Shown piece after piece: positions 1 through 33,408 of a stretch of DNA of 64,000 bases. Below the pieces are notes generated by a model. It did no database searches and was not told the DNA's origin. It saw only the letters and a list, made by a program, of their open reading frames with translations. Source of the DNA: Loxodes magnus (taxonomy: Eukaryota > Ciliophora > Karyorelictea > Loxodida > Loxodidae); NCBI GenBank assembly GCA_946699065.1, contig CAMPDV010001059.1:62001-126000 (forward strand), in the 5' to 3' direction. Every line of letters begins with the position of its first letter. Position 1 is the first letter of the stretch. A program made the translations under genes and the position numbers.

Positions 1-2
1 GA

Positions 3-3000
3 AGTTATGATAATACGGTGAGACTATGGGACGTCAAGACAGGTACCTGTAAGACCATGAGTGGTCACACAGGTTATGCATATGCTGTGGCTATATCCAG
101 TGATTCACAGTTCATCGTATCGGGAAGTTATGATAATACGGTGAGACTATGGGACGTCAAGACAGGTACCTGTAAGACCATGAGTGGTCACACTAGTAAT
201 GCATATGCTGTGGCTATATCCAGTGATTCAGAGTTCATCGTATCGGGAAGTTATGATAATACGGTGAGACTATGGGACGTCAAGACAGGTACCTGTAAGA
301 CCATGAGTGGTCACACTAATTCTGCATATGCTGTGGCAATATCCAGTGATTCAGAGTTCATCGTATCGGGAAGTTATGATAATACGGTGAGACTATGGGA
401 CGTCAAGACAGGTACCTGTAAGACCATGAGTGGTCACACAGGTTATGTATATGCTGTGGCTATATCCAGTGATTCAGAGTTCATCGTATCGGGAAGTTAT
501 GATAAAACGGTGAGACTATGGGACGTCAAGACAGGTACCTGTAAGACCATGAGTGGTCACACAGGTTATGCATATGCTGTGGCTATATCCAGTGATTCAG
601 AGTTCATCGTATCGGGAAGTTATGATAATACGGTGAGACTATGGGACGTCAAGACAGGTACCTGTAAGACCATGAGTGGTCACACTAATTCTGTATATGC
701 TGTGGCTATATCCAGTGATTCAGAGTTCATCGTATCGGGAAGTTATGATAATACGGTGAGACTATGGGACGTCAAGACAGGTACCTGTAAGACCATGAGT
801 GGTCACACAGATTATGTATATGCTGTGGCTATATCCAGTGATTCAGAGTTCATCGTATCGGGAAGTTATGATAAAACGGTGAGACTATGGGACGTCAAGA
901 CAGGTACCTGTAAGACCATGAGTGGTCACACAGGTTATGTATATGCTGTGGCTATATCCAGTGATTCAGAGTTCATCGTATCGGAAAGTTATGATAATAC
1001 GGTGAGACTATGGGACGTCAAGACAGGTACCTGTAAGACCATGAGTGGTCACACAGGTTTTGTATATGCTGTGGCTATATCCAGTGATTCACAGTTCATC
1101 GTATCGGGAAGTTATGATAATACGGTGAGACTATGGGACGTCAAGACAGGTACCTGTAAGACCATGAGTGGTCACACTAGTAATGCATATGCTGTGGCTA
1201 TATCCAGTGATTCAGAGTTCATCGTATCGGAAAGTTATGATAATACGGTGAGACTATGGGACGTCAAGACAGGTACCTGTAAGACCATGAGTGGTCACAC
1301 AGGTTTTGTATATGCTGTGGCTATATCCAGTGATTCACAGTTCATCGTATCGGGAAGTTATGATAATACGGTGAGACTATGGGACGTCAAGACAGGTACC
1401 TGTAAGACCATGAGTGGTCACACAGGTTATGCATATGCTGTGGCTATATCCAGTGATTCACAGTTCATCGTATCGGGAAGTTATGATAATACGGTGAGAC
1501 TATGGGACGTCAAGACAGGTACCTGTAAGACCATGAGTGGTCACACTAGTAATGCATATGCTGTGGCAATATCCAGTGATTCAGAGTTCATCGTATCGGG
1601 AAGTTATGATAAAACGGTGAGACTATGGGACGTCAAGACAGGTACCTGTAAGACCATGAGTGGTCACACTAATTCTGTATATGCTGTGGCTATATCCAGT
1701 GATTCAGAGTTCATCGTATCGGGAAGTTATGATAATACGGTGAGACTATGGGACGTCAAGACAGGTACCTGTAAGACCATGAGTGGTCACACAGGTTTTG
1801 TATATGCTGTGGCAATATCCAGTGATTCAGAGTTCATCGTATCGGGAAGTTATGATAATACGGTGAGACTATGGGACGTCAAGACAGGTACCTGTAAGAC
1901 CATGAGTGGTCACACAGATTCTGTATATGCTGTGGCTATATCCAGTGATTCAGAGTTCATCGTATCGGAAAGTTATGATAATACGGTGAGACTATGGGAC
2001 GTCAAGACAGGTACCTGTAAGACCATGAGTGGTCACACAGATTTTGTAAGAACTGTGTCTATATCCAGTGATTCAGAGTTCATCGTATCGGGAAGTTATG
2101 ATAAAACGGTGAGACTATGGGACGTCAAGACAGGTACCTGTAAGACCATGAGTGGTCACACAGATTTTGTAAGAACTGTGTCTATATCCAGTGATTCAGA
2201 GTTCATCGTATCGGGAAGTTATGATAAAACGGTGAGACTATGGGACGTCAAGACAGGTACCTGTAAGACCATGAGTGGTCACACTAGTAATGCATATGCT
2301 GTGGCTATATCCAGTGATTCACAGTTCAATGTATCGGGAAGTTATGATGATACAGTGAGACTATGGGACGTCAAGACAGGTAACTGTAAGACCATGAGTG
2401 GTCACACAGGTTATGCATATGCTGTGGCTATATCCAGTGATTCAGAGTTCATCGTATCGGAAAGTTATGATAAAACGGTGAGACTATGGGACGTCAAGAC
2501 AGGTACCTGTAAGACCATGAGTGGTCACACTAATTCTGTATATGCTGTGGCTATATCCAGTGATTCAGAGTTCAATGTATCGGGAAGTGTTGATAATACG
2601 GTGAGACTATGGGACGTCAAGACAGGTACCTGTAAGACCATGAGTGGTCACACAGATTCTGTATATGCTGTGGCTATATCCAGTGATTCAGAGTTCATCG
2701 TATCGGAAAGTTATGATAATACAGTGAGACTATGGGACGTCAAGACAGGTACCTGTAAGACCATGAGTGGTCACACAGATTCTGTATATGCTGTGGCTAT
2801 ATCCAGTGATTCAGAGTTCAATGTATCGGGAAGTGTTGATAATACGGTGAGACTATGGGACGTCAAGACAGGTACCTGTAAGACCATGAGTGGTCACACT
2901 AATTCTGTATATGCTGTGGCTATATCCAGTGATTCACAGTTCAATGTATCGGGAAGTGTTGATAATACGGTGAGACTATGGGACGTCAAGACAGGTACCT

Positions 3001-6000
3001 GTAAGACCATGAGTGGTCACACAGGTTATGCATATGCTGTGGCTATATCCAGTGATTCACAGTTCATCGTATCGGGAAGTTATGATAATACGGTGAGACT
3101 ATGGGACGTCAAGACAGGTACCTGTAAGACCATGAGTGGTCACACAGATTCTGTATATGCTGTGGCTATATCCAGTGATTCAGAGTTTATCGTATCGGAA
3201 AGTTATGATAATACGGTGAGACTATGGGACGTCAAGACAGGTACCTGTAAGACCATGAGTGGTCACACTAATTCTGTATATGCTGTGGCTATATCCAGTG
3301 ATTCAGAGTTCATCGTATCGGGAAGTTTTGATAAAACGGTGAGACTATGGGACGTCAAGACAGGTACCTGTAAGAACGTGAGTGGTCACACAGGTTATGT
3401 ATATGCTGTGTCTATATCCAGTGATTCAGAGTTCATCGTATCGGAAAGTTATGATAATACGGTGAGACTATGGGACGTCAAGACAGGTACCTGTAAGACC
3501 ATGAGTGGTCACACAGGTTATGTATATGCTGTGGCTATATCCAGTGATTCACAGTTCATCGTATCGGGAAGTTATGATAATACGGTGAGACTATGGGACG
3601 TCAAGACAGGTACCTGTAAGACCATGAGTGGTCACACTAATTCTGTTTCATCTGTGGCTATATCCAGTGATTCAGAGTTCATCGTATCGGAAAGTTATGA
3701 TAATACGGTGAGACTATGGGACGTCAAGACAGGTACCTGTAAGACCATGAGTGGTCACACTAATTCTGTATATGCTGTGGCTATATCCAGTGATTCAGAG
3801 TTCATCGTATCGGGAAGTTATGATAATACGGTGAGACTATGGGACGTCAAGACAGGTACCTGTAAGACCATGAGTGGTCACACTAGTAATGCATATGCTT
3901 TGGCAATATCCAGTGATTCAGAGTTCATCGTATCGGGAAGTTATGATAATACGGTGAGACTATGGGACGTCAAGACAGGTACCTGTAAGACCATGAGTGG
4001 TCACACAGATTTTGTAAGAACTGTGTCTATATCCAGTGATTCAGAGTTCATCGTATCGGGAAGTTATGATAAAACGGTGAGACTATGGGACGTCAAGACA
4101 GGTACCTGTAAGACCATGAGTGGTCACACAGATTCTGTATATGCTGTGGCTATATCCAGTGATTCAGAGTTCATCGTATCGGGAAGTTATGATAATACGG
4201 TGAGACTATGGGACGTCAAGACAGGTACCTGTAAGACCATGAGTGGTCACACTAATTCTGTATATGCTGTGGCTATATCCAGTGATTCACAGTTCATCGT
4301 ATCGGGAAGTTATGATAATACGGTGAGACTATGGGACGTCAAGACAGGTACCTGTAAGACCATGAGTGGTCACACAGATTTTGTAAGAACTGTGTCTATA
4401 TCCAGTGATTCAGAGTTCATCGTATCGGGAAGTTATGATAAAACGGTGAGACTATGGGACGTCAAGACAGGTACCTGTAAGACCATGAGTGGTCACACTA
4501 GTAATTCATATGCTTTGGCAATATCCAGTGATTCACAGTTCATCGTATCGGGAAGTTATGATAATACGGTGAGACTATGGGACGTCAAGACAGGTACCTG
4601 TAAGACCATGAGTGGTCACACTAATTCTGTTTCATCTGTGGCAATATCCAGTGATTCAGAGTTTATCGTATCGGGAAGTTATGATAATACGGTGAGACTA
4701 TGGGACGTCAAGACAGGTACCTGTAAGACCATGAGTGGTCACACAGGTTATGTATATGCTGTGTCTATATCCAGTGATTCAGAGTTTATCGTATCGGGAA
4801 GTTATGATAAAACGGTGAGACTATGGGACGTCAAGACAGGTACCTGTAAGACCATGAGTGGTCACACTAATTCTGTATATGCTGTGGCTATATCCAGTGA
4901 TTCAGAGTTCATCGTATCTGGAAGTGTTGATAATACGGTGAGACTATGGGACGTCAAGACAGGTACCTGTAAGACCATGAGTGGTCACACTAATTCTGTA
5001 TATGCTGTTGCTATATCCAGTGATTCAGAGTTTATCGTATCGGGAAGTTATGATAATACGGTGAGACTATGGGACGTCAAGACAGGTACCTGTAAGACCA
5101 TGAGTGGTCACACTAATTCTGTATATGCTGTGGCTATATCCAGTGATTCAGAGTTCATCGTATCGGGAAGTTATGATAAAACGGTGAGACTATGGGACGT
5201 CAAGACAGGTACCTGTAAGACCATGAGTGGTCACACAGGTTATGTATATGCTGTGTCTATATCCAGTGATTCAGAGTTCATCGTATCGGGAAGTTATGAT
5301 GATACGGTGAGACTATGGGACGTCAAGACAGGTACCTGTAAGACCATGAGTGGTCACACAGGTTATGCATATGCTGTGGCTATATCCAGTGATTCAGAGT
5401 TCATCGTATCGGGAAGTTATGATAATACGGTGAGACTATGGGACGTCAAGACAGGTACCTGTAAGACCATGAGTGGTCACACAGGTTTTGTATATGCTGT
5501 GGCTATATCCAGTGATTCAGAGTTCATCGTATCGGGAAGTTATGATAAAACGGTGAGACTATGGGACGTCAAGACAGGTACCTGTAAGACCATGAGTGGT
5601 CACACTAATTCTGTATATGCTGTGGCTATATCCAGTGATTCAGAGTTCATCGTATCTGGAAGTGTTGATAATACGGTGAGACTATGGGACGTCAAGACAG
5701 GTACCTGTAAGACCATGAGTGGTCACACAGGTTATGTATATGCTGTGGCTATATCCAGTGATTCAGAGTTCATCGTATCGGAAAGTTATGATAATACGGT
5801 GAGACTATGGGACGTCAAGACAGGTACCTGTAAGACCATGAGTGGTCACACAGATTCTGTATATGCTGTTGCTATATCCAGTGATTCAGAGTTTATCGTA
5901 TCGGGAAGTTATGATAATACGGTGAGACTATGGGACGTCAAGACAGGTACCTGTAAGACCATGAGTGGTCACACAGATTCTGTATATGCTGTTGCTATAT

Positions 6001-9000
6001 CCAGTGATTCAGAGTTTATCGTATCGGGAAGTTATGATAATACGGTGAGACTATGGGACGTCAAGACAGGTACCTGTAAGACCATGAGTGGTCACACAGA
6101 TTCTGTATATGCTTTGGCAATATCCAGTGATTCAGAGTTCATCGTATCGGGAAGTTATGATAATACGGTGAGACTATGGGACGTCAAGACAGGTACCTGT
6201 AAGACCATGAGTGGTCACACAGATTCTGTATATGCTGTGGCTATATCCAGTGATTCAGAGTTCATCGTATCGGGAAGTTATGATAAAACGGTGAGACTAT
6301 GGGACGTCAAGACAGGTACCTGTAAGACCATGAGTGGTCACACAGGTTATGTATATGCTGTGGCTATATCCAGTGATTCAGAGTTCATCGTATCGGGAAG
6401 TTATGATAAAACGGTGAGACTATGGGACGTCAAGACAGGTACCTGTAAGACCATGAGTGGTCACACAGGTTATGCATATGCTGTGGCAATATCCAGTGAT
6501 TCAGAGTTCATCGTATCGGGAAGTTATGATGATACGGTGAGACTATGGGACGTCAAGACAGGTACCTGTAAGACCATGAGTGGTCACACTAATTCTGTAT
6601 ATGCTGTGGCTATATCCAGTGATTCAGAGTTCATCGTATCGGGAAGTTATGATAATACGGTGAGACTATGGGACGTCAAGACAGGTACCTGTAAGACCAT
6701 GAGTGGTCACACTAATTCTGTTTCATCTGTGGCAATATCCAGTGATTCAGAGTTCATCGTATCGGGAAGTTATGATAATACAGTGAGACTATGGGACGTC
6801 AAGACAGGTACCTGTAAGACCATGAGTGGTCACACAGATTCTGTTTCATCTGTGGCTATATCCAGTGATTCAGAGTTCATCGTATCGGAAAGTTATGATA
6901 ATACGGTGAGACTATGGGACGTCAAGACAGGTACCTGTAAGACCATGAGTGGTCACACAGGTTATGTATATGCTGTGGCTATATCCAGTGATTCAGAGTT
7001 CATCGTATCGGAAAGTTATGATAATACGGTGAGACTATGGGACGTCAAGACAGGTACCTGTAAGACCATGAGTGGTCACACAGGTTATGTATATGCTGTG
7101 GCTATATCCAGTGATTCAGAGTTCATCGTATCGGAAAGTTATGATAATACGGTGAGACTATGGGACGTCAAGACAGGTACCTGTAAGACCATGAGTGGTC
7201 ACACTAATTCTGTTTCATCTGTGGCAATATCCAGTGATTCAGAGTTCATCGTATCGGGAAGTTATGATAATACAGTGAGACTATGGGACGTCAAGACAGG
7301 TACCTGTAAGACCATGAGTGGTCACACAGGTTTTGTATATGCTGTGGCTATATCCAGTGATTCAGAGTTCATCGTATCGGGAAGTTATGATAAAACGGTG
7401 AGACTATGGGACGTCAAGACAGGTACCTGTAAGACCATGAGTGGTCACACTAATTCTGTATATGCTGTGGCTATATCCAGTGATTCAGAGTTCATCGTAT
7501 CTGGAAGTGTTGATAATACGGTGAGACTATGGGACGTCAAGACAGGTACCTGTAAGACCATGAGTGGTCACACAGGTTATGTATATGCTGTGGCTATATC
7601 CAGTGATTCAGAGTTCATCGTATCGGGAAGTTATGATAAAACGGTGAGACTATGGGACGTCAAGACAGGTACCTGTAAGACCATGAGTGGTCACACTAAT
7701 TCTGTTTCATCTGTGGCAATATCCAGTGATTCAGAGTTCATCGTATCGGGAAGTTATGATAATACAGTGAGACTATGGGACGTCAAGACAGGTACCTGTA
7801 AGACCATGAGTGGTCACACAGATTCTGTTTCATCTGTGGCTATATCCAGTGATTCAGAGTTTATCGTATCGGGAAGTTATGATAATACAGTGAGACTATG
7901 GGACGTCAAGACAGGTACCTGTAAGACCATGAGTGGTCACACAGGTTTTGTATATGCTGTGGCTATATCCAGTGATTCAGAGTTCATCGTATCGGGAAGT
8001 TATGATAAAACGGTGAGACTATGGGACGTCAAGACAGGTACCTGTAAGACCATGAGTGGTCACACAGGTTTTGTATATGCTGTGGCTATATCCAGTGATT
8101 CAGAGTTCATCGTATCGGGAAGTTTAGATAAGTCGGTGAGACTATGGGACGTCAAGACAGGTACCTGTAAGACCATGAGTGGTCACACAGATTCTGTATA
8201 TTCTGTGGCAATATCCAGTGATTCAGAGTTCAATGTATCGGGAAGTGTTGATAATACGGTGAGACTATGGGACGTCAAGACAGGTACCTGTAAGACCATG
8301 AGTGGTCACACAGGTTATGCATATGCTGTGGCTATATCCAGTGATTCAGAGTTCATCGTATCGGGAAGTTATGATAATACGGTGAGACTATGGGACGTCA
8401 AGACAGGTACCTGTAAGACCATGAGTGGTCACACTAATTCTGTATATGCTGTGGCTATATCCAGTGTTTCAGAGTTCATCGTATCGGAAAGTTATGATAA
8501 TACGGTGAGACTATGGGACGTCAAGACAGGTACCTGTAAGACCATGAGTGGTCACACTAGTAATGCATATGCTTTGGCAATATCCAGTGATTCACAGTTC
8601 ATCGTATCGGGAAGTTATGATAATACGGTGAGACTATGGGACGTCAAGACAGGTACCTGTAAGACCATGAGTGGTCACACTAATTCTGTATATGCTGTGG
8701 CAATATCCAGTGATTCAGAGTTCATCGTATCGGGAAGTTATGATAATACAGTGAGACTATGGGACGTCAAGACAGGTACCTGTAAGACCATGAGTGGTCA
8801 CACAGATTCTGTATATGCTGTTGCTATATCCAGTGATTCAGAGTTTATCGTATCGGGAAGTTATGATAATACGGTGAGACTATGGGACGTCAAGACAGGT
8901 ACCTGTAAGACCATGAGTGGTCACACAGGTTATGTATATGCTGTGGCAATATCCAGTGATTCACATTTCATCGTATCGGGAAGTTATGATAATACGGTGA

Positions 9001-9923
9001 GACTATGGGACGTCAAGACAGGTACCTGTAAGACCATGAGTGGTCACACAGGTTTTGTATATGCTGTGGCTATATCCAGTGATTCAGAGTTCATCGTATC
9101 GGGAAGTTATGATAAAACGGTGAGACTATGGGACGTCAAGACAGGTACCTGTAAGACCATGAGTGGTCACACTAATTCTGTATATGCTGTGGCTATATCC
9201 AGTGATTCAGAGTTCATCGTATCGGGAAGTGTTGATAATACGGTGAGACTATGGGACGTCAAGACAGGTACCTGTAAGACCATGAGTGGTCACACAGGTT
9301 ATGTATATGCTGTGGCTATATCCAGTGATTCAGAGTTCATCGTATCGGGAAGTTATGATAAAACGGTGAGACTATGGGACGTCAAGACAGGTACCTGTAA
9401 GACCATGAGTGGTCACACAGGTTATGTATATGCTGTGGCTATATCCAGTGATTCAGAGTTCATCGTATCGGGAAGTTATGATAAAACGGTGAGACTATGG
9501 GACGTCAAGACAGGTACCTGTAAGACCATGAGTGGTCACACTAGTAATGCATATGCTTTGGCAATATCCAGTGATTCAGAGTTCATCGTATCGGGAAGTT
9601 ATGATAATACGGTGAGACTATGGGACGTCAAGACAGGTACCTGTAAGACCATGAGTGGTCACACAGATTCTGTATATGCTGTGGCTATATCCAGTGATTC
9701 AGAGTTCATCGTATCGGGAAGTTATGATAATACAGTGAGACTATGGGACGTCAAGACAGGTACCTGTAAGACCATGAGTGGTCACACTAATTCTGTATAT
9801 GCTGTGGCTATATCCAGTGATTCAGAGTTCATCGTATCGGGAAGTTATGATGATACGGTGAGACTATGGGACGTCAAGACAGGTACCTGTAAGACCATGA
9901 GTGGTCACACTAATTCTGTATAA
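3..9923 (+). CDS. Giant WD40-repeat protein, 5' part missing (C-terminal about 3,306 residues)
   Basis: The frame is open from the left edge to TAA at 9921-9923 and holds more than 80 consecutive 41-residue WD40 units. There is no start codon to choose: the GTG at 18 is only the Val of the TVRLWD motif, so the true start lies upstream. Each unit has the propeller tetrad (Asp3, His22, a Ser in strand b, Trp9), so many seven- or eight-bladed propellers could form. I see no signal peptide, membrane segment or catalytic domain. Scaffold codons are almost identical between units. Codons 24-27 alternate among GYA, GYV, GFV, DSV, DFV, DYV, NSV, NSA, SNA and SNS, followed by YAV, YAL, RTV or SSV. Codons 2 and 4 give YDN, YDK, YDD, VDN, FDK or LDK, and codon 41 is G or E. 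WD40 propellers are protein-binding scaffolds; the partner is unknown. The stop comes from TAT to TAA at codon 27, and the repeat continues beyond it. Rare variants: T15N (2392), D34V (8467), LDKS (about 8125). An N-terminal effector such as NACHT is possible but not seen. Confidence 0.85.
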   Translation, partial: SYDNTVRLWDVKTGTCKTMSGHTGYAYAVAISSDSQFIVSGSYDNTVRLWDVKTGTCKTMSGHTSNAYAVAISSDSEFIVSGSYDNTVRLWDVKTGTCKTMSGHTNSAYAVAISSDSEFIVSGSYDNTVRLWDVKTGTCKTMSGHTGYVYAVAISSDSEFIVSGSYDKTVRLWDVKTGTCKTMSGHTGYAYAVAISSDSEFIVSGSYDNTVRLWDVKTGTCKTMSGHTNSVYAVAISSDSEFIVSGSYDNTVRLWDVKTGTCKTMSGHTDYVYAVAISSDSEFIVSGSYDKTVRLWDVKTGTCKTMSGHTGYVYAVAISSDSEFIVSESYDNTVRLWDVKTGTCKTMSGHTGFVYAVAISSDSQFIVSGSYDNTVRLWDVKTGTCKTMSGHTSNAYAVAISSDSEFIVSESYDNTVRLWDVKTGTCKTMSGHTGFVYAVAISSDSQFIVSGSYDNTVRLWDVKTGTCKTMSGHTGYAYAVAISSDSQFIVSGSYDNTVRLWDVKTGTCKTMSGHTSNAYAVAISSDSEFIVSGSYDKTVRLWDVKTGTCKTMSGHTNSVYAVAISSDSEFIVSGSYDNTVRLWDVKTGTCKTMSGHTGFVYAVAISSDSEFIVSGSYDNTVRLWDVKTGTCKTMSGHTDSVYAVAISSDSEFIVSESYDNTVRLWDVKTGTCKTMSGHTDFVRTVSISSDSEFIVSGSYDKTVRLWDVKTGTCKTMSGHTDFVRTVSISSDSEFIVSGSYDKTVRLWDVKTGTCKTMSGHTSNAYAVAISSDSQFNVSGSYDDTVRLWDVKTGNCKTMSGHTGYAYAVAISSDSEFIVSESYDKTVRLWDVKTGTCKTMSGHTNSVYAVAISSDSEFNVSGSVDNTVRLWDVKTGTCKTMSGHTDSVYAVAISSDSEFIVSESYDNTVRLWDVKTGTCKTMSGHTDSVYAVAISSDSEFNVSGSVDNTVRLWDVKTGTCKTMSGHTNSVYAVAISSDSQFNVSGSVDNTVRLWDVKTGTCKTMSGHTGYAYAVAISSDSQFIVSGSYDNTVRLWDVKTGTCKTMSGHTDSVYAVAISSDSEFIVSESYDNTVRLWDVKTGTCKTMSGHTNSVYAVAISSDSEFIVSGSFDKTVRLWDVKTGTCKNVSGHTGYVYAVSISSDSEFIVSESYDNTVRLWDVKTGTCKTMSGHTGYVYAVAISSDSQFIVSGSYDNTVRLWDVKTGTCKTMSGHTNSVSSVAISSDSEFIVSESYDNTVRLWDVKTGTCKTMSGHTNSVYAVAISSDSEFIVSGSYDNTVRLWDVKTGTCKTMSGHTSNAYALAISSDSEFIVSGSYDNTVRLWDVKTGTCKTMSGHTDFVRTVSISSDSEFIVSGSYDKTVRLWDVKTGTCKTMSGHTDSVYAVAISSDSEFIVSGSYDNTVRLWDVKTGTCKTMSGHTNSVYAVAISSDSQFIVSGSYDNTVRLWDVKTGTCKTMSGHTDFVRTVSISSDSEFIVSGSYDKTVRLWDVKTGTCKTMSGHTSNSYALAISSDSQFIVSGSYDNTVRLWDVKTGTCKTMSGHTNSVSSVAISSDSEFIVSGSYDNTVRLWDVKTGTCKTMSGHTGYVYAVSISSDSEFIVSGSYDKTVRLWDVKTGTCKTMSGHTNSVYAVAISSDSEFIVSGSVDNTVRLWDVKTGTCKTMSGHTNSVYAVAISSDSEFIVSGSYDNTVRLWDVKTGTCKTMSGHTNSVYAVAISSDSEFIVSGSYDKTVRLWDVKTGTCKTMSGHTGYVYAVSISSDSEFIVSGSYDDTVRLWDVKTGTCKTMSGHTGYAYAVAISSDSEFIVSGSYDNTVRLWDVKTGTCKTMSGHTGFVYAVAISSDSEFIVSGSYDKTVRLWDVKTGTCKTMSGHTNSVYAVAISSDSEFIVSGSVDNTVRLWDVKTGTCKTMSGHTGYVYAVAISSDSEFIVSESYDNTVRLWDVKTGTCKTMSGHTDSVYAVAISSDSEFIVSGSYDNTVRLWDVKTGTCKTMSGHTDSVYAVAISSDSEFIVSGSYDNTVRLWDVKTGTCKTMSGHTDSVYALAISSDSEFIVSGSYDNTVRLWDVKTGTCKTMSGHTDSVYAVAISSDSEFIVSGSYDKTVRLWDVKTGTCKTMSGHTGYVYAVAISSDSEFIVSGSYDKTVRLWDVKTGTCKTMSGHTGYAYAVAISSDSEFIVSGSYDDTVRLWDVKTGTCKTMSGHTNSVYAVAISSDSEFIVSGSYDNTVRLWDVKTGTCKTMSGHTNSVSSVAISSDSEFIVSGSYDNTVRLWDVKTGTCKTMSGHTDSVSSVAISSDSEFIVSESYDNTVRLWDVKTGTCKTMSGHTGYVYAVAISSDSEFIVSESYDNTVRLWDVKTGTCKTMSGHTGYVYAVAISSDSEFIVSESYDNTVRLWDVKTGTCKTMSGHTNSVSSVAISSDSEFIVSGSYDNTVRLWDVKTGTCKTMSGHTGFVYAVAISSDSEFIVSGSYDKTVRLWDVKTGTCKTMSGHTNSVYAVAISSDSEFIVSGSVDNTVRLWDVKTGTCKTMSGHTGYVYAVAISSDSEFIVSGSYDKTVRLWDVKTGTCKTMSGHTNSVSSVAISSDSEFIVSGSYDNTVRLWDVKTGTCKTMSGHTDSVSSVAISSDSEFIVSGSYDNTVRLWDVKTGTCKTMSGHTGFVYAVAISSDSEFIVSGSYDKTVRLWDVKTGTCKTMSGHTGFVYAVAISSDSEFIVSGSLDKSVRLWDVKTGTCKTMSGHTDSVYSVAISSDSEFNVSGSVDNTVRLWDVKTGTCKTMSGHTGYAYAVAISSDSEFIVSGSYDNTVRLWDVKTGTCKTMSGHTNSVYAVAISSVSEFIVSESYDNTVRLWDVKTGTCKTMSGHTSNAYALAISSDSQFIVSGSYDNTVRLWDVKTGTCKTMSGHTNSVYAVAISSDSEFIVSGSYDNTVRLWDVKTGTCKTMSGHTDSVYAVAISSDSEFIVSGSYDNTVRLWDVKTGTCKTMSGHTGYVYAVAISSDSHFIVSGSYDNTVRLWDVKTGTCKTMSGHTGFVYAVAISSDSEFIVSGSYDKTVRLWDVKTGTCKTMSGHTNSVYAVAISSDSEFIVSGSVDNTVRLWDVKTGTCKTMSGHTGYVYAVAISSDSEFIVSGSYDKTVRLWDVKTGTCKTMSGHTGYVYAVAISSDSEFIVSGSYDKTVRLWDVKTGTCKTMSGHTSNAYALAISSDSEFIVSGSYDNTVRLWDVKTGTCKTMSGHTDSVYAVAISSDSEFIVSGSYDNTVRLWDVKTGTCKTMSGHTNSVYAVAISSDSEFIVSGSYDDTVRLWDVKTGTCKTMSGHTNSV

Positions 9924-10598
9924 GCTGTGACTATATCCAGTGATTCAGAGTTCATCGTATCGGAAAGTTATGATAATACGGTGAGACTATGGGACGTCAA
10001 GACAGGTACCTGTAAGAACGTGAGTGGTCACACAGGTTTTGTAAGAACTGTGTCTATATCCAGTGATTCAGAGTTCATCGTATCGGGAAGTTATGATAAT
10101 ACGGTGAGACTATGGGACGTCAAGACAGGTACCTGTAAGACCATGAGTGGTCACACAGGTTATGCATATGCTGTGGCTATATCCAGTGATTCAGAGTTCA
10201 TCGTATCGGGAAGTTATGATAATACAGTGAGACTATGGGACGTCAAGACAGGTACCTGTAAGACCATGAGTGGTCACACAGATTCTGTTTCATCTGTGGC
10301 TATATCCAGTGATTCAGAGTTCATCGTATCGGAAAGTTATGATAATACGGTGAGACTATGGGACGTCAAGACAGGTACCTGTAAGACCATGAGTGGTCAC
10401 ACTAATTCTGTATATGCTGTGGCAATATCCAGTGATTCAGAGTTCATCGTATCGGGAAGTTATGATAATACGGTGAGACTATGGGACGTCAAGACAGGTA
10501 CCTGTAAGACCATGAGTGGTCACACAGGTTTTGTATATGCTGTGCTATATCCAGTGATTCACAGTTCAATGTATCGGGAAGTGTTGATAATACGGTGA
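9924..10598 (+). pseudogene. WD40 repeat fragment after the first stop, ends in a frameshift
   Basis: This continues the preceding frame after TAA 9921. The first codons read GCT GTG ACT, so a GCT-to-ACT change is linked to the nonsense change. Five good units follow (GFV-RTV, GYA, DSV-SSV, NSV, then GFV). One G is then missing from GTGGCT at about 10544, so the frame reads out as LYPVIHSSMYREVLIIR and stops at 10596-10598. The first unit has KNV instead of KTM at codons 17-19, as also at about 3374. Translation would need readthrough or reinitiation, so it is probably not expressed as an independent protein. Confidence 0.75.
10541..10546 (+). other. One-base deletion (GTGGCT to GTGCT), frame 3 to 2
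   Basis: Sequence TGTGCTATAT replaces TGTGGCTATA. The downstream repeat frame shifts by one and the unit is 122 bp long. Confidence 0.9.
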
Positions 10599-11458
10599 GA
10601 CTATGGGACGTCAAGACAGGTACCTGTAAGACCATGAGTGGTCACACAGATTCTGTATATGCTGTGGCTATATCCAGTGATTCAGAGTTCATCGTATCGG
10701 GAAGTTATGATGATACGGTGAGACTATGGGACGTCAAGACAGGTACCTGTAAGACCATGAGTGGTCACACTAGTAATGCATATGCTTTGGCAATATCCAG
10801 TGATTCAGAGTTCATCGTATCGGGAAGTTATGATAATACGGTGAGACTATGGGACGTCAAGACAGGTACCTGTAAGACCATGAGTGGTCACACAGATTTT
10901 GTAAGAACTGTGTCTATATCCAGTGATTCAGAGTTCATCGTATCGGAAAATTATGATAATACTGTGAGACTATGGGACGTCAAGACAGGTACCTGTAAGA
11001 CCATGAGTGGTCACACAGGTTATGTATATGCTGTGGCTATATCCAGTGATTCAGAGTTCATCGTATCGGAAAGTTATGATAAAACGGTGAGACTATGGGA
11101 CGTCAAGACAGGTACCTGTAAGACCATGAGTGGTCACACAGATTCTGTTTCATCTGTGGCTATATCCAGTGATTCAGAGTTCATCGTATCGGAAAGTTAT
11201 GATAATACGGTGAGACTATGGGACGTCAAGACAGGTACCTGTAAGACCATGAGTGGTCACACTAATTCTGTATATGCTGTGGCAATATCCAGTGATTCAG
11301 AGTTCATCGTATCGGGAAGTTATGATAATACGGTGAGACTATGGGACGTCAAGACAGGTACCTGTAAGACCATGAGTGGTCACACAGGTTTTGTATATGC
11401 TGTGCTATATCCAGTGATTCACAGTTCAATGTATCGGGAAGTTATGATAAAACGGTGA
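10595..11458 (+). pseudogene. WD40 repeat fragment in frame 2, ends in the same frameshift
   Basis: The repeat frame resumes in frame 2 after the deletion at 10544; the GTG at 10595 is the Val6 codon, not an evident start. Seven units follow: DSV, SNA-YAL, DFV-RTV, GYV, DSV-SSV, NSV, GFV. The last repeats the one-G deletion, at about 11404. The three units before that deletion match those before 10544, so the break was copied by a 7-unit duplication. Codon 1 of one unit is Asn (SENYD, about 10949), a rare variant. Confidence 0.75.
11401..11406 (+). other. One-base deletion (GTGGCT to GTGCT), frame 2 to 1
   Basis: Same change as at 10544, 860 bases later (7 units minus 1). It is therefore a copied mutation rather than an independent one. 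Confidence 0.9.
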
Positions 11459-13332
11459 GACTATGGGACGTCAAGACAGGTACCTGTAAGACCATGAGTG
11501 GTCACACAGATTCTGTATATGCTGTGGCTATATCCAGTGATTCAGAGTTCATCGTATCGGGAAGTTATGATGATACGGTGAGACTATGGGACGTCAAGAC
11601 AGGTACCTGTAAGACCATGAGTGGTCACACAGGTTATGCATATGCTGTGGCTATATCCAGTGATTCACAGTTCATCGTATCGGGAAGTTATGATAAAACG
11701 GTGAGACTATGGGACGTCAAGACAGGTACCTGTAAGACCATGAGTGGTCACACAGGTTATGTATATGCTGTGGCTATATCCAGTGATTCAGAGTTCATCG
11801 TATCGGAAAGTTATGATAATACGGTGAGACTATGGGACGTCAAGACAGGTACCTGTAAGACCATGAGTGGTCACACTAATTCTGTATATGCTGTGGCTAT
11901 ATCCAGTGATTCAGAGTTCATCGTATCGGGAAGTGCAGATTATACGGTGAGACTATGGGACGTCAAGACAGGTACCTGTAAGACCATGAGTGGTCACACA
12001 GATTTTGTAAGAACTGTGTCTATATCCAGTGATTCACAGTTCATCGTATCGGGAAGTTATGATAATACGGTGAGACTATGGGACGTCAAGACAGGTACCT
12101 GTAAGACCATGAGTGGTCACACAGATTTTGTAAGAACTGTGTCTATATCCAGTGATTCAGAGTTTATCGCATCGGGAAGTTATGATAAAACGGTGAGACT
12201 ATGGGACGTCAAGACAGGTACCTGTAAGACCATGAGTGGTCACACTAGTAATGCATATGCTTTGGCAATATCCAGTGATTCACAGTTCATCGTATCGGGA
12301 AGTTATGATAATACGGTGAGACTATGGGACGTCAAGACAGGTACCTGTAAGACCATGAGTGGTCACACTAATTCTGTATATGCTGTGGCTATATCCAGTG
12401 ATTCAGAGTTCATCGTATCGGAAAGTTATGATAATACGGTGAGACTATGGGACGTCAAGACAGGTACCTGTAAGACCATGAGTGGTCACACTAATTCTGT
12501 ATATGCTGTGGCTATATCCAGTGATTCACAGTTCAATGTATCGGGAAGTGTTGATAATACGGTGAGACTATGGGACGTCAAGACAGGTACCTGTAAGACC
12601 ATGAGTGGTCACACTAATTCTGTTTCATCTGTGGCAATATCCAGTGATTCAGAGTTCATCGTATCGGGAAGTTATGATAATACAGTGAGACTATGGGACG
12701 TCAAGACAGGTACCTGTAAGACCATGAGTGGTCACACAGATTCTGTATATGCTGTTGCTATATCCAGTGATTCAGAGTTTATCGTATCGGGAAGTTATGA
12801 TAATACGGTGAGACTATGGGACGTCAAGACAGGTACCTGTAAGACCATGAGTGGTCACACAGGTTATGTATATGCTGTGGCAATATCCAGTGATTCACAT
12901 TTCATCGTATCGGGAAGTTATGATAATACGGTGAGACTATGGGACGTCAAGACAGGTACCTGTAAGACCATGAGTGGTCACACAGGTTTTGTATATGCTG
13001 TGGCTATATCCAGTGATTCAGAGTTCATCGTATCGGGAAGTTATGATAAAACGGTGAGACTATGGGACGTCAAGACAGGTACCTGTAAGACCATGAGTGG
13101 TCACACTAATTCTGTATATGCTGTGGCTATATCCAGTGATTCAGAGTTCATCGTATCGGGAATTGTTGATAATACGGTGAGACTATGGGACGTCAAGACA
13201 GGTACCTGTAAGACCATGAGTGGTCACACAGGTTATGTATATGCTGTGGCTATATCCAGTGATTCAGAGTTCATCGTATCGGGAAGTTATGATAAAACGG
13301 TGAGACTATGGGACGTCAAGACAGGTACCTGA
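11455..13332 (+). pseudogene. WD40 repeat fragment in frame 1, ended by TGT-to-TGA
   Basis: There are about 15 type 1 units in frame 1 after the second deletion. The fragment is closed by TGA at 13330-13332, where every other unit has TGT (Cys16). It carries markers typical of region 2 or rare elsewhere: ADYT at about 11934, IAS at about 12168, SGIVDN at about 13163. The part around 12,740-13,420 matches 8,806-9,486 in unit order, including the rare SDSHF unit (8961 and 12895). This shows a 32-unit segmental copy. Outside codon 16 of the last unit it looks coding-competent. Confidence 0.75.
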
Positions 13333-14472
13333 AAGACCATGAGTGGTCACACAGGTTATGTATATGCTGTGGCTATATCCAGTGATTCAGAGTTCATCGT
13401 ATCGGGAAGTTATGATAAAACGGTGAGACTATGGGACGTCAAGACAGGTACCTGTAAGACCATGAGTGGTCACACAGGTTTTGTAAGAACTGTGTCTATA
13501 TCCAGTGATTCAGAGTTCATCGTATCGGAAAGTTATGATAATACTGTGAGACTATGGGACGTCAAGACAGGTACCTGTAAGACCATGAGTGGTCACACAG
13601 ATTCTGTATATGCTGTGGCTATATCCAGTGATTCAGAGTTCATCGTATCGGGAAGTTATGATAATACAGTGAGACTATGGGACGTCAAGACAGGTACCTG
13701 TAAGACCATGAGTGGTCACACTAATTCTGTATATGCTGTGGCTATATCCAGTGATTCAGAGTTCATCGTATCGGGAAGTTATGATGATACGGTGAGACTA
13801 TGGGACGTCAAGACAGGTACCTGTAAGACCATGAGTGGTCACACAGGTTTTGTATATGCTTTGGCAATATCCAGTGATTCAGAGTTCATCGTATCGGGAA
13901 GTTATGATAATACGGTGAGACTATGGGACGTCAAGACAGGTACCTGTAAGACCATGAGTGGTCACACTAATTCTGTATATGCTGTGGCTATATCCAGTGA
14001 TTCAGAGTTCATCGTATCGGGAAGTTATGATAATACGGTGAGACTATGGGACGTCAAGACAGGTACCTGTAAGACCATGAGTGGTCACACAGATTCTGTA
14101 TATGCTGTGGCTATATCCAGTGATTCAGAGTTCATCGTATCGGGAAGTTATGATAATACAGTGAGACTATGGGACGTCAAGACAGGTACCTGTAAGACCA
14201 TGAGTGGTCACACTAATTCTGTATATGCTGTGGCTATATCCAGTGATTCAGAGTTCATCGTATCGGAAAGTTATGATAATACGGTGAGACTATGGGACGT
14301 CAAGACAGGTACCTGTAAGACCATGAGTGGTCACACAGATTCTGTATATGCTGTGGCTATATCCAGTGATTCACAGTTCATCGTATCGGGAAGTTATGAT
14401 GATACGGTGAGACTATGGGACGTCAAGACAGGTACCTGTAAGACCATGAGTGGTCAACCTAGTTATGTATGA
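13333..14472 (+). pseudogene. Last nearly clean type 1 WD40 stretch
   Basis: Nine further units follow in frame 1, directly continuing the previous fragment past TGA 13330; the first ATG (13339) is the Met19 codon of the unit. Order: GYV, GFV-RTV, DSV, NSV, GFV-YAL, NSV, DSV, NSV, DSV. It ends in the first SGQPSYV block, with TGA at 14470-14472. This is where the array changes character: His22 becomes Gln (CAC to CAA), Thr23 becomes Pro, and codon 27 becomes a stop. Confidence 0.75.
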
Positions 14473-23751: not shown

Positions 23752-24539
23752 ACGGTGAGAATATGGGACGTCAAGACAGGTACCTGTAAGACCATGAGTG
23801 GTCACACTAGTTATGTATATGCTGCGGCTATATCCAGTGATTCAGAGTTCATCGTATCGGGAAGTTATGATGATACGGTGAGAATATGGGACGTCAAGAC
23901 AGGTACCTGTAAGACCATGAGTGGTCACACTAGTTATGTATGATCTGTGGCTATATCCAGTGATTCAGAGTTCATCGTATCGGGAAGTCATGATTAGACG
24001 GTGAGAATATGGGACGTCAAGACAGGTACCTGTAAGACCATGAGTGGTCACACTAGTTATGTATATGCTGTGGCTATATCCATTAATTTGGAGTTCATCG
24101 TATCGGGAAGTTATGATGATACGGTGAGACTATGGGACGTCAAGACAGGTACCTGTAAGACCATGAGTGGTCACACTAGTTATGTATGATCTGTGGCTAT
24201 ATCCAGTGATTCAGAGTTCATCGTATCGGGAAGTGATGATAATACGTTGAGACTATGTGACGTCAAGACAGGTATCTGTAAGATCATGAGTGGTCACACT
24301 AGTTGTGTAAATGCTGTGGCTATATCCAGTGATTCAGAGTTCATCGTATCGGGAAGTGGAGATAAGACGGTGAGAATATGGGACGTCAAGACAGGTACCT
24401 GTAAGACCATGAGTGGTCACACTAATTCTGTATTATCTGTGGCTATATCCATTGATTCACAGTTCAATGTCTCGGGAAGTTATGATAATACGGTGAGACT
24501 ATGGGACGTCAAGACAGGTACCTGTAAGACCATGAGTGG

Positions 24540-26402
<1,863 letters not shown>

Positions 26403-27137
26403 GTGGCTATATCCAGTGATTCAGAGTTCATCGTATCGGGAAGTGATGATAATACGTTGAGACTATGTGACGTCAAGACAGGTATCTGTAAGATCATGAG
26501 TGGTCACACTAGTTGTGTAAATGCTGTGGCTATATCCAGTGATTCAGAGTTCATCGTATCGGGAAGTGGAGATAAGACGGTGAGAATATGGGACGTCAAG
26601 ACAGGTACCTGTAAGACCATGAGTGGTCACACTAATTCTGTATTATCTGTGGCTATATCCATTGATTCACAGTTCAATGTCTCGGGAAGTTATGATAATA
26701 CGGTGAGACTATGGGACGTCAAGACAGGTACCTGTAAGACCATGAGTGGTCACACTAGTTATGTATATGCTGCGGCTATATCCAGTGATTCAGAGTTCAT
26801 CGTATCGGGAAGTGGAGATAAGACGGTGAGAATATGGGACGTCAAGACAGGTACCTGTAAGACCATGAGTGGTCACACTAATTCTGTATTATCTGTGGCT
26901 ATATCCATTAATTTGGAGTTCATCGTATCGGGAAGTGCAGATTATACGGTGAGACTATGGGACGTCAAGACAGGTACATGTAAGACCATGAGTGGTCACA
27001 CTAGTTATGTATATGCTGTGGCTATATCCATTGATTTGGAGTTCATCGTATCGGGAAGTTATGATGATACGGTGAGACTATGGGACGTCAAGACAGGTAC
27101 CTGTAAGACCATGAGTGGTCACACTAGTTATGTATGA
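26403..27137 (+). pseudogene. Open WD40 fragment, 244 residues
   Basis: Six units in frame 3: [83 protein letters not shown], ending SYV and TGA. Its first three units copy 24193-24540. One unit has ACA instead of ACC for Thr15 (about 26,975). Confidence 0.6.
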
Positions 27138-27387
27138 TCTGTGGCTATATCCAGTGATTCAGAGTTAATCGTATCGGAAAGTCATGATTAGACGGTGAGA
27201 ATATGGGACGTCAAGACAGGTACCTGTAAGACCATGAGTGGTCACACTAGTTATGTATATGCTGTGGCTATATCCATTAATTTGGAGTTCATCGTATCGG
27301 GAAGTTATGATGATACGGTGAGACTATGGGACGTCAAGACAGGTACCTGTAAGACCATGAGTGGTCACACTAGTTATGTATATGCTG

Positions 27388-28478
27388 TGGCTATATCCAT
27401 TAATTTGGAGTTCATCGTATCGGGAAGTCATGATTATACGGTGAGACTATGGGACGTCAAGACAGGTACCTGTAAGACCATGAGTGGTCACACTAGTTAT
27501 GTATTATCTGTGGCTATATCCAGTGATTCAGAGTTAATCGTATCGGAAAGTCATGATTAGACGGTGAGAATATGGGACGTCAAGACAGGTACCTGTAAGA
27601 CCATGAGTGGTCACACTAGTTATGTATATGCTGTGGCTATATCCATTAATTTGGAGTTCATCGTATCGGGAAGTTATGATGATACGGTGAGACTATGGGA
27701 CGTCAAGACAGGTACCTGTAAGACCATGAGTGGTCACACTAGTTATGTATGATCTGTGACTATATCCAGTGATTCAGAGTTCATCGTATCGGGAAGTCAT
27801 GATTAGACGGTGAGAATATGGGACGTCAAGACAGGTACCTGTAAGACCATGAGTGGTCACACTAGTTATGTATATGCTGTGGCTATATCCATTGATTTGG
27901 AGTTCATCGTATCGGGAAGTTATGATGATACGGTGAGACTATGGGACGTCAAGACAGGTACCTGTAAGACCATGAGTGGTCACACTAGTTATGTATGATC
28001 TGTGGCTATATCCAGTGATTCAGAGTTCATCGTATCGGGAAGTCATGATTAGACGGTGAGAATATGGGACGTCAAGACAGGTACCTGTAAGACCATGAGT
28101 GGTCACACTAATTAAGTATTATCTGTGTCTATATCCAGTGATTCAGAGTTCATCGTATCGGGAAGTCATGATTAGACGGTGAGAATATGGGACGTCAAGA
28201 CAGGTACCTGTAAGACCATGAGTGGTCACACTAGTTATGTATATGCTGTGGCTATATCCATTGATTTGGAGTTCATCGTATCGGGAAGTTATGATGATAC
28301 GGTGAGACTATGGGACGTCAAGACAGCTACCTGTAAGACCATGAGTGGTCACACTAGTTATGTATGATCTGTGGCTATATCCAGTGATTCAGAGTTCATC
28401 GTATCGGGAAGTCATGATTAGACGGTGAGAATATGGGACGTCAAGACAGGTACCTGTAAGACCATGAGTGGTCACACT
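27388..28478 (+). repeat. Segmental duplication H2, copy 2
   Basis: Second copy of 19520-20610, including SELIVSESHD-TAG, a GTGACT variant near 27,756 and the KTATCK unit near 28,327 that is also in copy 1 (about 20,458). Confidence 0.8.
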
Positions 28479-28603
28479 AATTAAGTATTATCTGTGTCTA
28501 TATCCAGTGATTCAGAGTTCATCGTATCGGGAAGTTATGATGATACGGTGAGACTATGGGACGTCAAGACAGGTACCTGTAAGGCCATGAGTGGTCAACC
28601 TAG

Positions 28604-29957
28604 TTGTGTAAATGCTGCGGCTATATCCAGTGATTCAGAGTTCATCGTATCGGGAAGTTATGATGATACGGTGAGACTATGGGACGTCAAGACAGGTACC
28701 TGTAAGACCATGAGTGGTCACACTAATTATGTATTATCTGTGTCTATATCCAGTGATTCAGAGTTCATCGTATCGGGAAGTGATGATAATACGTTGAGAC
28801 TATGTGACGTCAAGACAGGTATCTGTAAGATCATGAGTGGTCACACTAGTTGTGTAAATGCTGTGGCTATATCCAGTGATTCAGAGTTCATCGTATCGGG
28901 AAGTTTAGATAAGACGGTGAGACTATGGGACGTCAAGACAGGTACCTGTAAGACCATGAGTGGTCAAACTAGTTATGTATGATCTGTGGCTATATCCAGT
29001 GATTCAGAGTTCATCGTATCGGGAAGTTATGATGATACGGTGAGACTATCGGACGTCAAGACAGGTACCTGTAAGACCATGAGTGGTCACACTAGTTATG
29101 TATATGCTGTGGCTATATCCATTGATTTGGAGTTCATCGTATCGGGAAGTTATGATGATACGGTGAGACTATGGGACGTCAAGACAGGTACCTGTAAGAC
29201 CATGAGTGGTCACACAGGTTATGTATATGCTGTGGCTTATCCGTTGATTTGGAGTTCATCGTATCGGGAAGTGCAGATTATACGGTGAGACTATGGGACG
29301 TCAAGACAGGTACCTGTAAGACCATGAGTGGTCACACTAATTAAGTATTATCTGTGTCTATATCCAGTGATTCAGAGTTCATCGTATCGGGAAGTTATGA
29401 TGATACGGTGAGACTATGGGACGTCAAGACAGGTACCTGTAAGACCATGAGTGGTCACACTAGTTATGTATGATCTGTGGCTATATCCAGTGATTCAGAG
29501 TTCATCGTATCGGGAAGTCATGATTAGACGGTGAGAATATGGGACGTCAAGACAGGTACCTGTAAGACCATGAGTGGTCACACTAGTTATGTATATGCTG
29601 TGGCTTATCCGTTGATTTGGAGTTCATCGTATCGGGAAGTTATGATGATACGGTGAGACTATGGGACGTCAAGACAGGTACCTGTAAGACCATGAGTGGT
29701 CACACTAATTAAGTATTATCTGTGTCTATATCCAGTGATTCAGAGTTCATCGTATCGGGAAGTCATGATTAGACGGTGAGAATATGGGACGTCAAGACAG
29801 GTACCTGTAAGACCATGAGTGGTCACACTAGTTATGTATATGCTGTGGCTATATCCATTGATTTGGAGTTCATCGTATCGGGAAGTTATGATGATACGGT
29901 GAGACTATGGGACGTCAAGACAGGTACCTGTAAGACCATGAGTGGTCACACTAGTTA
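28604..29957 (+). repeat. Segmental duplication H3, copy 1 (11 units)
   Basis: Same order as 30447-31800 at an offset of 1843 (15 units minus 2 deletions). Contains HTNYVLSVS, the uninterrupted parent of HTN-stop (TAT versus TAA at codon 25), and two of the one-base deletions. One difference is visible: Trp9 is TCG (Ser) at about 29050 here but TGG in copy 2. Confidence 0.85.
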
Positions 29958-30446
29958 TGTATGATCTGTGGCTATATCCAGTGATTCAGAGTTCATCGTA
30001 TCGGGAAGTCATGATTAGACGGTGAGAATATGGGACGTCAAGACAGGTACCTGTAAGACCATGAGTGGTCACACTAATTAAGTATTATCTGTGTCTATAT
30101 CCAGTGATTCAGAGTTCATCGTATCGGGAAGTCATGATTAGACGGTGAGAATATGGGACGTCAAGACAGGTACCTGTAAGACCATGAGTGGTCACACTAG
30201 TTATGTATATGCTGTGGCTATATCCATTGATTTGGAGTTCATCGTATCGGGAAGTTATGATGATACGGTGAGACTATGGGACGTCAAGACAGGTACCTGT
30301 AAGACCATGAGTGGTCACACTAGTTATGTATGATCTGTGGCTATATCCAGTGATTCAGAGTTCATCGTATCGGGAAGTCATGATTAGACGGTGAGAATAT
30401 GGGACGTCAAGACAGGTACCTGTAAGACCATGAGTGGTCACACTAG

Positions 30447-31800
30447 TTGTGTAAATGCTGCGGCTATATCCAGTGATTCAGAGTTCATCGTATCGGGAAG
30501 TTATGATGATACGGTGAGACTATGGGACGTCAAGACAGGTACCTGTAAGACCATGAGTGGTCACACTAATTATGTATTATCTGTGTCTATATCCAGTGAT
30601 TCAGAGTTCATCGTATCGGGAAGTGATGATAATACGTTGAGACTATGTGACGTCAAGACAGGTATCTGTAAGATCATGAGTGGTCACACTAGTTGTGTAA
30701 ATGCTGTGGCTATATCCAGTGATTCAGAGTTCATCGTATCGGGAAGTTTAGATAAGACGGTGAGACTATGGGACGTCAAGACAGGTACCTGTAAGACCAT
30801 GAGTGGTCAAACTAGTTATGTATGATCTGTGGCTATATCCAGTGATTCAGAGTTCATCGTATCGGGAAGTTATGATGATACGGTGAGACTATGGGACGTC
30901 AAGACAGGTACCTGTAAGACCATGAGTGGTCACACTAGTTATGTATATGCTGTGGCTATATCCATTGATTTGGAGTTCATCGTATCGGGAAGTTATGATG
31001 ATACGGTGAGACTATGGGACGTCAAGACAGGTACCTGTAAGACCATGAGTGGTCACACAGGTTATGTATATGCTGTGGCTTATCCGTTGATTTGGAGTTC
31101 ATCGTATCGGGAAGTGCAGATTATACGGTGAGACTATGGGACGTCAAGACAGGTACCTGTAAGACCATGAGTGGTCACACTAATTAAGTATTATCTGTGT
31201 CTATATCCAGTGATTCAGAGTTCATCGTATCGGGAAGTTATGATGATACGGTGAGACTATGGGACGTCAAGACAGGTACCTGTAAGACCATGAGTGGTCA
31301 CACTAGTTATGTATGATCTGTGGCTATATCCAGTGATTCAGAGTTCATCGTATCGGGAAGTCATGATTAGACGGTGAGAATATGGGACGTCAAGACAGGT
31401 ACCTGTAAGACCATGAGTGGTCACACTAGTTATGTATATGCTGTGGCTTATCCGTTGATTTGGAGTTCATCGTATCGGGAAGTTATGATGATACGGTGAG
31501 ACTATGGGACGTCAAGACAGGTACCTGTAAGACCATGAGTGGTCACACTAATTAAGTATTATCTGTGTCTATATCCAGTGATTCAGAGTTCATCGTATCG
31601 GGAAGTCATGATTAGACGGTGAGAATATGGGACGTCAAGACAGGTACCTGTAAGACCATGAGTGGTCACACTAGTTATGTATATGCTGTGGCTATATCCA
31701 TTGATTTGGAGTTCATCGTATCGGGAAGTTATGATGATACGGTGAGACTATGGGACGTCAAGACAGGTACCTGTAAGACCATGAGTGGTCACACTAGTTA
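30447..31800 (+). repeat. Segmental duplication H3, copy 2
   Basis: Second copy of 28604-29957, with deletions at 31078 and 31446. It diverges at 31801, where SYA-YAV replaces SYV-stop. The 24,490-25,090 region has a related, shorter version of the same ordered units. Confidence 0.85.

Positions 31801-33408
<1,608 letters not shown>

Follow-up and report, generated by a model that had tools for sequence, protein, structure and literature searches.

A WD40-repeat satellite in the ciliate Loxodes magnus probably keeps variation founded in a large, diversified gene family

The DNA analyzed here is a 64,000-base stretch from the karyorelict ciliate Loxodes magnus (the window; bases 62001-126000 of contig CAMPDV010001059.1, here C1059), and it consists from end to end of a repeated WD40 unit. 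We conclude that the window is probably non-coding satellite DNA that was founded when central WD40 blades from a large family of ciliate genes, diversified by selection, were amplified, and that its variation was inherited from those genes. The initial annotation of this DNA had read the variation as a diversifying recognition surface. Such a surface fits a gene family elsewhere in the genome, but the window itself is a satellite with amplified frameshifts, neutral young mutations, and units that have lost the conserved Trp or Gly-His (GH).

The window (1-64000; all window features given here lie on the forward strand) is a single head-to-tail array of 123-bp (41-codon) WD40 units, as established by Tandem Repeats Finder, a unit walk, and the extent of the contig. 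Taking as codon 1 the AGT that starts at window base 3, the walk divides the window into 520 units, 508 of 123 bp and 12 of 122 bp. The array occupies all 141,669 bases of C1059 with no flank at either side, amounting to 1151 units (1105 of them 123 bp), and all array statistics below come from this one contig. Exact matches to a 36-mer of the unit number 346,945 across the 705,730,643-base genome, with none for the reversed control. Because 846 of the 1151 units of C1059 carry this 36-mer (290 of the 520 in the window), we estimate about 472,000 units genome-wide, equivalent to 58 Mb or 8% of the assembly, with a floor of 42.7 Mb. One of 20 places picked across 20 contigs fell in a WD40-unit array, and the published macronuclear assembly of 706 Mbp is reported to hold 231 Mbp of tandem repeats (PMC11441545). 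Unit-lag comparisons, made in segments at lags of up to 119 units, revealed local duplications only and no single fixed higher-order period. The long tandem arrays and the high genomic copy number are those of satellite DNA.

Window positions 1-14472 (region 1) belong to array class I, which extends upstream to contig base 1 and retains the WD40 scaffold, with Trp9 in 116/116 and GH in 115/116 full-length units. These 116 units represent 85 types. As the initial annotation had noticed, codons 5-23 are nearly invariant; each has 0-2 non-synonymous changes, and among them only codons 5 (14/116) and 23 (44/116) vary synonymously. The eight codons it listed as variable do vary, with non-modal residues most frequent at codons 24 (75/116), 25 (60), and 4 (37), followed by 41 (22), 27 (21), 36 (18), 2 (14), and 38 (6). 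Codons 26, 28, 29, and 30, within the 24-30 block it had described, join them (21, 21, 8, and 13 of 116). The unit walk also bore out that changes come as multi-base codon blocks, and that the blocks recombine freely: all four gametes occur in 177 of 300 pairs of common sites, and mean r2 declines from 0.30 at 0-3 nt to 0.012 at 26-62 nt. Since linkage decays inside one unit, the shuffling of blocks within array units is real.

The expected contrast in dN/dS between variable and scaffold codons is also present. Among distinct unit types, the Nei-Gojobori method (NG86) gives codons 2, 4, 24, 25, and 27 (the five codons) a proportion of non-synonymous differences (pN) of 0.289 and of synonymous differences (pS) of 0.040, a ratio of 7.15, versus 0.027, 0.063, and 0.43 for the other 36 codons; these and the later ratios are descriptive only, as NG86 overstates independence when applied to recombining repeats. 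The pattern is not limited to region 1, where the initial annotation had placed it. It spans the entire contig, with 99 combinations at codons 2, 4, 25, and 27, and appears in the two other arrays that we looked at (L028 and L019). In the remainder of the window (14473-64000, array class II), the ratio is 3.9 at the five codons and 1.72 in the scaffold, and pS stands in the opposite order to region 1 (0.097 at the five codons versus 0.031 elsewhere). Among 392 class II units, codon 2 encodes Y (102), H (99), G (63), D (49), A (40), or L (39), and codon 4 encodes K (97), D (82), N (76), Q (76), or Y (59), with two others; codons 1, 3, 19, 20, and 21 are invariant. The class II scaffold is decaying, with Trp9 lost from 52/393 units and GH from 84/393.

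The reading frame is decaying as well. Frame-changing units number 45 of the 1151 in C1059, and identical one-base deletions recur. Ten units in the stretch 24478-34676 share a deletion at unit column 91 (unit starts 24478, 24846, 25214, 25828, 29148, 29516, 30991, 31359, 32219, and 34555), and four units share one at column 87, of which two are in the window (stretch 10458-11439, starts 10458 and 11318) and two elsewhere in the contig. Frameshifted units have therefore been amplified with the array. A shared sequencing error is less likely because the assembly was built from circular consensus sequencing (CCS) reads (PMC11441545).

The age structure of the variation separates its present behavior from its past. 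Across the 1104 full-length units of C1059, alleles seen once comprise 4 synonymous (S) and 23 non-synonymous (N) changes, with 3/27 in the five codons (3.3 expected). Those seen 2-5 times comprise 4 S and 19 N (2/23 in the five codons), those seen 6-30 times 6 S and 8 N (0/14), and those with more than 30 copies 8 S and 41 N, of which 22/49 fall in the five codons (P 1e-8). When the alleles seen 1-5 times are pooled (8 S, 42 N; 5/50 in the five codons versus about 6 expected), the counts are incompatible with a dN/dS of 0.43-0.47 (P 2e-4 to 7e-4) but consistent with neutrality (P 0.39 and 0.08 under two mutation spectra). In the array, then, young variants behave neutrally and are scattered evenly, whereas the old ones cluster at the five codons, a difference suggesting that the pattern was inherited. 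As judged from sequence, amplified frameshifts and neutral young alleles indicate that the C1059 array, like satellite DNA in general, is not under selection for a protein.

The likely source is a family of WD40 genes that contain short runs of the array-type unit. Two of them, L020 and L022, have seven WD40 blades when inspected by eye, with array-type units as the central blades. Both genes, the two that we scanned, match pentapeptide repeats (PF00805) at 53.0 and 46.6 bits, respectively (cut-off 20.2). The N-terminus of L020 is RING-like, matching zf-RING_UBOX at 17.5 or 14.6 bits, below the cut-off of 25.2. The first 450 residues of L020, ahead of the propeller, matched no Pfam family above cut-off and gave sub-threshold zinc-finger matches only, with neither HET nor NACHT; the N-termini of other genes were matched to that of L020, the gene scanned with Pfam. 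Genome searches with the gene head, tail, and N-terminus returned at least 150 matches each. Heads and tails formed 49 pairs, 47 of them close together. In 41 of the close pairs, exactly 477 bp separate head from tail, which is the spacing of four central blades and gives seven blades in total; the other six gaps are 354 bp (two), 474 bp (two), 478 bp, and 481 bp. The two long-gap pairs (11,972 and 11,736 bp) exceed 477 by lengths that 123 does not divide evenly, and we set them aside as combining the head and tail of different genes. A 17-mer from the gene tail occurs 299 times in the genome (reversed control 0) and is absent from C1059; since it is present in 24 of 34 genes, these counts suggest a family of about 420 genes. 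None of 20 places 1.6 kb downstream of gene heads proved to be an array. Titles and abstract openings in the literature revealed no WD40 satellite or hypervariable WD40 family in any ciliate, and the main text of PMC11441545, leaving its supplements aside, has no mention of wd40, satellite, wd-repeat, or beta-propeller.

The five codons are also the most variable positions of the genes. We compared blades 2-4 of 34 genes, namely L020 and 33 of the 41 genes with 477-bp spacing (32 plus L022), yielding 102 blades that were rotated to the codon order of the array. The five codons have pN 0.488 and pS 0.156 (NG86 ratio 3.12), and the remaining codons 0.044 and 0.094 (0.47). Entropies at codons 2, 4, 24, 25, and 27 are 3.48, 2.51, 2.14, 1.98, and 2.60 bits, the highest of the unit, followed by 1.23 bits at codon 28, where S or A predominates, and 0.99 bits at codon 10, which is D or N. 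D3 is retained in 100/102 blades. The 102 blades hold 88 combinations, and of the 15 codon pairs tested for association, 2-4, 4-24, 4-27, and 27-28 reached P <0.02, while the other 11 were not below 0.05.

Genes and array share this pattern and differ in their particular alleles. Array unit and gene blade can be close, as 81 of the 102 blades lie within 1-8 nt of some unit of C1059, and A28S is common to 308/519 class II units and 55/102 gene blades. The class I markers E36Q (112/585), I38N (60/585), G41E (94/585), and V26A (150/585) are nonetheless each found in 0/102 gene blades, and the class II markers S33I (138/519) and H22Q (CAA; 114/519) in one blade each. If the genes drew from the class I pool, the chance of zero would be 4e-10 for E36Q, 2e-8 for G41E, and 8e-14 for V26A. 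The genes encode 15 residues at codon 2, versus seven in each array class, and their blades form two subtypes at codons 6-11, TVRLWDVKT and TLRLYNIKT; LRLYNI occurs in 19/102 blades and in 0/1104 array units. Array-only residues are F at codon 2, S at codon 4, and F, N, and C at codon 25. The comparison fits an array founded by a few blades of one subtype, with no flow seen from the C1059 array to the genes; rare flow in that direction, or flow from other arrays, may occur. The wider range of codon 2 residues in the genes and the absence of LRLYNI from the array are why we infer the direction from genes to array.

We propose that the genes encode a RING-like head, pentapeptide repeats, and a seven-blade propeller with near-identical central blades, in which the five codons would lie on the binding face and would have been diversified most likely through selection for recognition of a partner. 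A ligand for the propeller is presumed, as are roles for the RING-like head and the pentapeptide repeats. Gene blades would swap sequence with one another, and long arrays would have arisen by amplification of a few blade variants of one subtype. The inherited variants would then have been shuffled by unequal exchange and short-tract conversion, so that combinations of surface codons may persist in an array that has ceased to be under selection as protein.

The structural model places the five codons where this proposal would have them. Nine units match the WD40 profile PF00400 (E 2.1e-99), and a single-sequence fold prediction for seven consecutive window units (24-884) produced a propeller with a predicted local distance difference test (pLDDT) of 93.4 and a predicted template modeling (pTM) score of 0.90. 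Its relatives in the PDB include 5mzh, first by E-value (TM 0.82), 5yzv (TM 0.91-0.93), and WDR5 (TM about 0.9). Profile and predicted fold both assign the unit to the WD40 beta-propellers. It resembles WDR5-type propellers and the highly repetitive bacterial WD40 proteins, such as PDB 2ymu (phmmer match E 9.5e-155), in fold and repeat; to our knowledge, propellers of the 2ymu and WDR5 types are single proteins without a diversified surface. Strands a to d of the model correspond to codons 26-31, 37-1, 5-10, and 16-20. The initial annotation had taken the variable codons to lie at the surface, with 2 and 25/27 probably on the binding face. The model puts codons 24 and 25 in the d-a loop, codon 27 at the beginning of strand a, and codons 2 and 4 in the b-c turn, in line with a binding-face position, and codons 36, 38, and 41 in the a-b loop and strand b; burial was judged from secondary structure, and the model is of array units rather than gene propellers. 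The claim that these three codons are diversifying recognition positions fails, as E36Q, I38N, and G41E are variation of the array.

The likeness drawn by the initial annotation to the HNWD genes het-d, het-e, and het-r of Podospora anserina holds in part. Both sets consist of near-identical WD40 units with diversified residue pairs flanking a conserved site, according to the published descriptions (PMC1805685, PMC2873952, PMC12222747). HNWD codons under selection are reported in the d-a loop and the b-c turn (PMC1805685), where our model puts the diversifying codons of these highly similar units. Of the reported HNWD variable positions 10, 11, 12, 14, 30, 32, and 39, the spacing of 11, 12, 14, 30, and 32 is that of codons 24, 25, 27, 2', and 4' here, and 10 and 39 lack a hypervariable counterpart (PMC12222747). 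The unit has 41 residues here and 42 in HNWD, and the N-terminal HET and NACHT domains of HNWD were not found in L020, the one gene scanned, which has a RING-like head and pentapeptide repeats. HNWD alleles carry a variable number of high-identity repeats; among the paralogues here, blade spacing is the same in 41 of 47 pairs. There are hundreds of genes here and ten there, a giant satellite of the same unit exists here, and the hosts are a ciliate and a fungus. Membership in HNWD (het-d/e/r) is not supported.

We weighed our interpretation against four others. The array could itself be coding and specify one or more giant WD40 recognition proteins whose surface codons are diversifying now. 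The intact Trp9 and GH of class I with its scaffold dN/dS of 0.43, frames that run for up to 45 kb when TAA, TAG, and TGA are not counted as stops, and the propeller predicted for seven units are all compatible with this, but frameshifts common to ten and to four units, young variants that are neutral and evenly spread, a class II scaffold ratio of 1.72 with Trp and GH lost, and 141.7 kb without flank in a genome holding about half a million units make it highly unlikely. It is very improbable that the array is an archive of blade cassettes feeding the genes by gene conversion, like silent copies in antigenic variation. Short tracts are indeed exchanged within the array, as the linkage decay implies, many genes lie near contig ends, and most gene blades are within a few nucleotides of an array unit, yet alleles specific to the one array compared are nearly absent from the genes. 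We give the least credence to a satellite that came first and whose units were later inserted into genes. The array far outnumbers the genes, and in L020 and L022 the distance to an array unit is 1-5 nt for some central units and 13-22 nt for others; the genes, however, have more residues at the hypervariable codons, a subtype missing from the array, and fixed blade spacing.

Local hypermutation or a sequence-directed mechanism, rather than selection, might also have produced the hypervariable codons. The multi-base block changes would suit it, as would the elevated pS that the five codons have in both class II and the genes, and for the latter reason we place slightly more weight on it and less on a selected, inherited pattern. 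Synonymous diversity, which the initial annotation had treated as diagnostic, gives a mixed answer here, because pS at the five codons is lower in region 1 (0.040 versus 0.063) and higher in class II and the genes; NG86 paths through multi-base codon changes score some of the steps as synonymous, which can raise pS without extra mutation. Young alleles have no preference for the five codons, pN at those codons is 3 to 7 times pS, and the positions match those of HNWD, for which selection was inferred (PMC1805685, PMC12222747). We regard hypermutation as a highly unlikely explanation. Several other points weigh against a non-coding satellite founded from selected genes. The class I scaffold ratio of 0.43 over all alleles, which we read as inherited, may instead reflect recent or partial coding use of class I, and frame-intact stretches reach 45.1 kb in class II. 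The young alleles are few (50), with possible consensus errors among them, and the NG86 ratios carry the caveat given above. The 34 genes were picked by similarity to one gene, and 33 of them also by the 477-bp spacing, which biases the sample to intact genes. Singletons in the gene scaffold (16 S, 32 N) are weakly above the neutral share (one-sided P 0.09), which leaves purifying selection on the genes less than firmly supported.

Many genes of the family lie near contig ends. Among the first 100 of the 299 gene-tag places, 59 are on contigs C2-C147. Of these, 24 fall in the first 65 kb of a contig, and every one is on the minus strand and points outward; the other 35 comprise 24 on the plus strand and 11 on the minus strand. 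Among 23 tags on contigs whose length is known, which were partly chosen for genes near an end, 16 are no more than 65 kb from an end (about 12% expected that near), and 15 point outward. Head matches concur, with 17/17 within 60 kb of a contig start (C1-C150) on the minus strand. A telomere motif was not established at the 12 contig ends fetched, ten of which have a tandem repeat of 80-98 bp (self-match 0.71-1.00; L102 and L106 are without), and the reading of these ends as telomeres gained no support. Of the 11 large-contig ends fetched (L095-L105), 10 consist of tandem repeats with AT-rich units of this size, which are rich in C/T where a contig starts and in A/G where it ends; L102 is the exception.

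Trypanosome VSG and Plasmodium var genes are large variable families at contig ends, and the present family is like them, as far as contig positions go, in having many outward-pointing members near ends. Taken together, we tentatively picture a recognition repertoire of several hundred genes with a RING-like head, pentapeptide repeats, and a seven-blade propeller diversified at five surface positions of the kind that fungi use in non-self recognition. It would lack the architecture of NOD-like receptors (NLR), have many members pointing outward near contig ends, and shuffle its central blades, which would have escaped into a satellite of roughly half a million copies that preserves past variants. 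Candidate roles are cell recognition, mating, and defense against parasites. The presence of so large a hypervariable family in a karyorelict ciliate would mean that an HNWD-like solution was reached in another architecture and lineage. The array resembles satellite DNA in its long homogeneous head-to-tail arrays, huge copy number, and decaying frame, and differs in that its monomer is a WD40 protein repeat whose common variants appear to bear the imprint of gene-family variation. It would thus be a case of satellite DNA recording selection that acted on its coding source, and a warning that codon-level selection scans on repeats may report strong positive selection in DNA that was formerly genic.

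The stops and region edges used by the initial annotation, which came from open reading frames (ORFs) under translation table 11, are artifacts of the wrong code. In L. magnus, TAA and TAG are reported to encode Gln, and TGA Trp or stop (PMC11441545). The 869-residue frame of L020 has TGA at WD40 Trp positions and many TAA or TAG codons, and most of the 150 gene N-termini scored have several TAA or TAG and no TGA. Because the flanking WD40 genes need this code, ORF edges are ruled out as gene boundaries, as with the 3306-residue ORF at window positions 3-9923, which ends at a TAA that is Gln in the host.

Isolated runs of two to three array-type units also occur in AT-rich DNA on contigs C2 (L003) and C3 (L021) and are perhaps moved fragments. 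Locus L018 (contig C4, 2220001-2227500) has, at its positions 3500-4700 and 5722 onward, a domain resembling protein kinases (PF07714, E 3.6e-22 and 9.6e-16 in two frames) and, downstream of it, an array. About 49 kb further on, the final 6.7 kb of C4 (L019) still consist of array, which there forms a separate class with its own founder set: codon 2 is G (19), Y (15), W (13), V (2), or A (2) among 51 full-length units, codon 25 is Q (32), Y (13), or H (6), codon 34 is Asn in all 51, and one of the 53 units is frameshifted by 8 bases.

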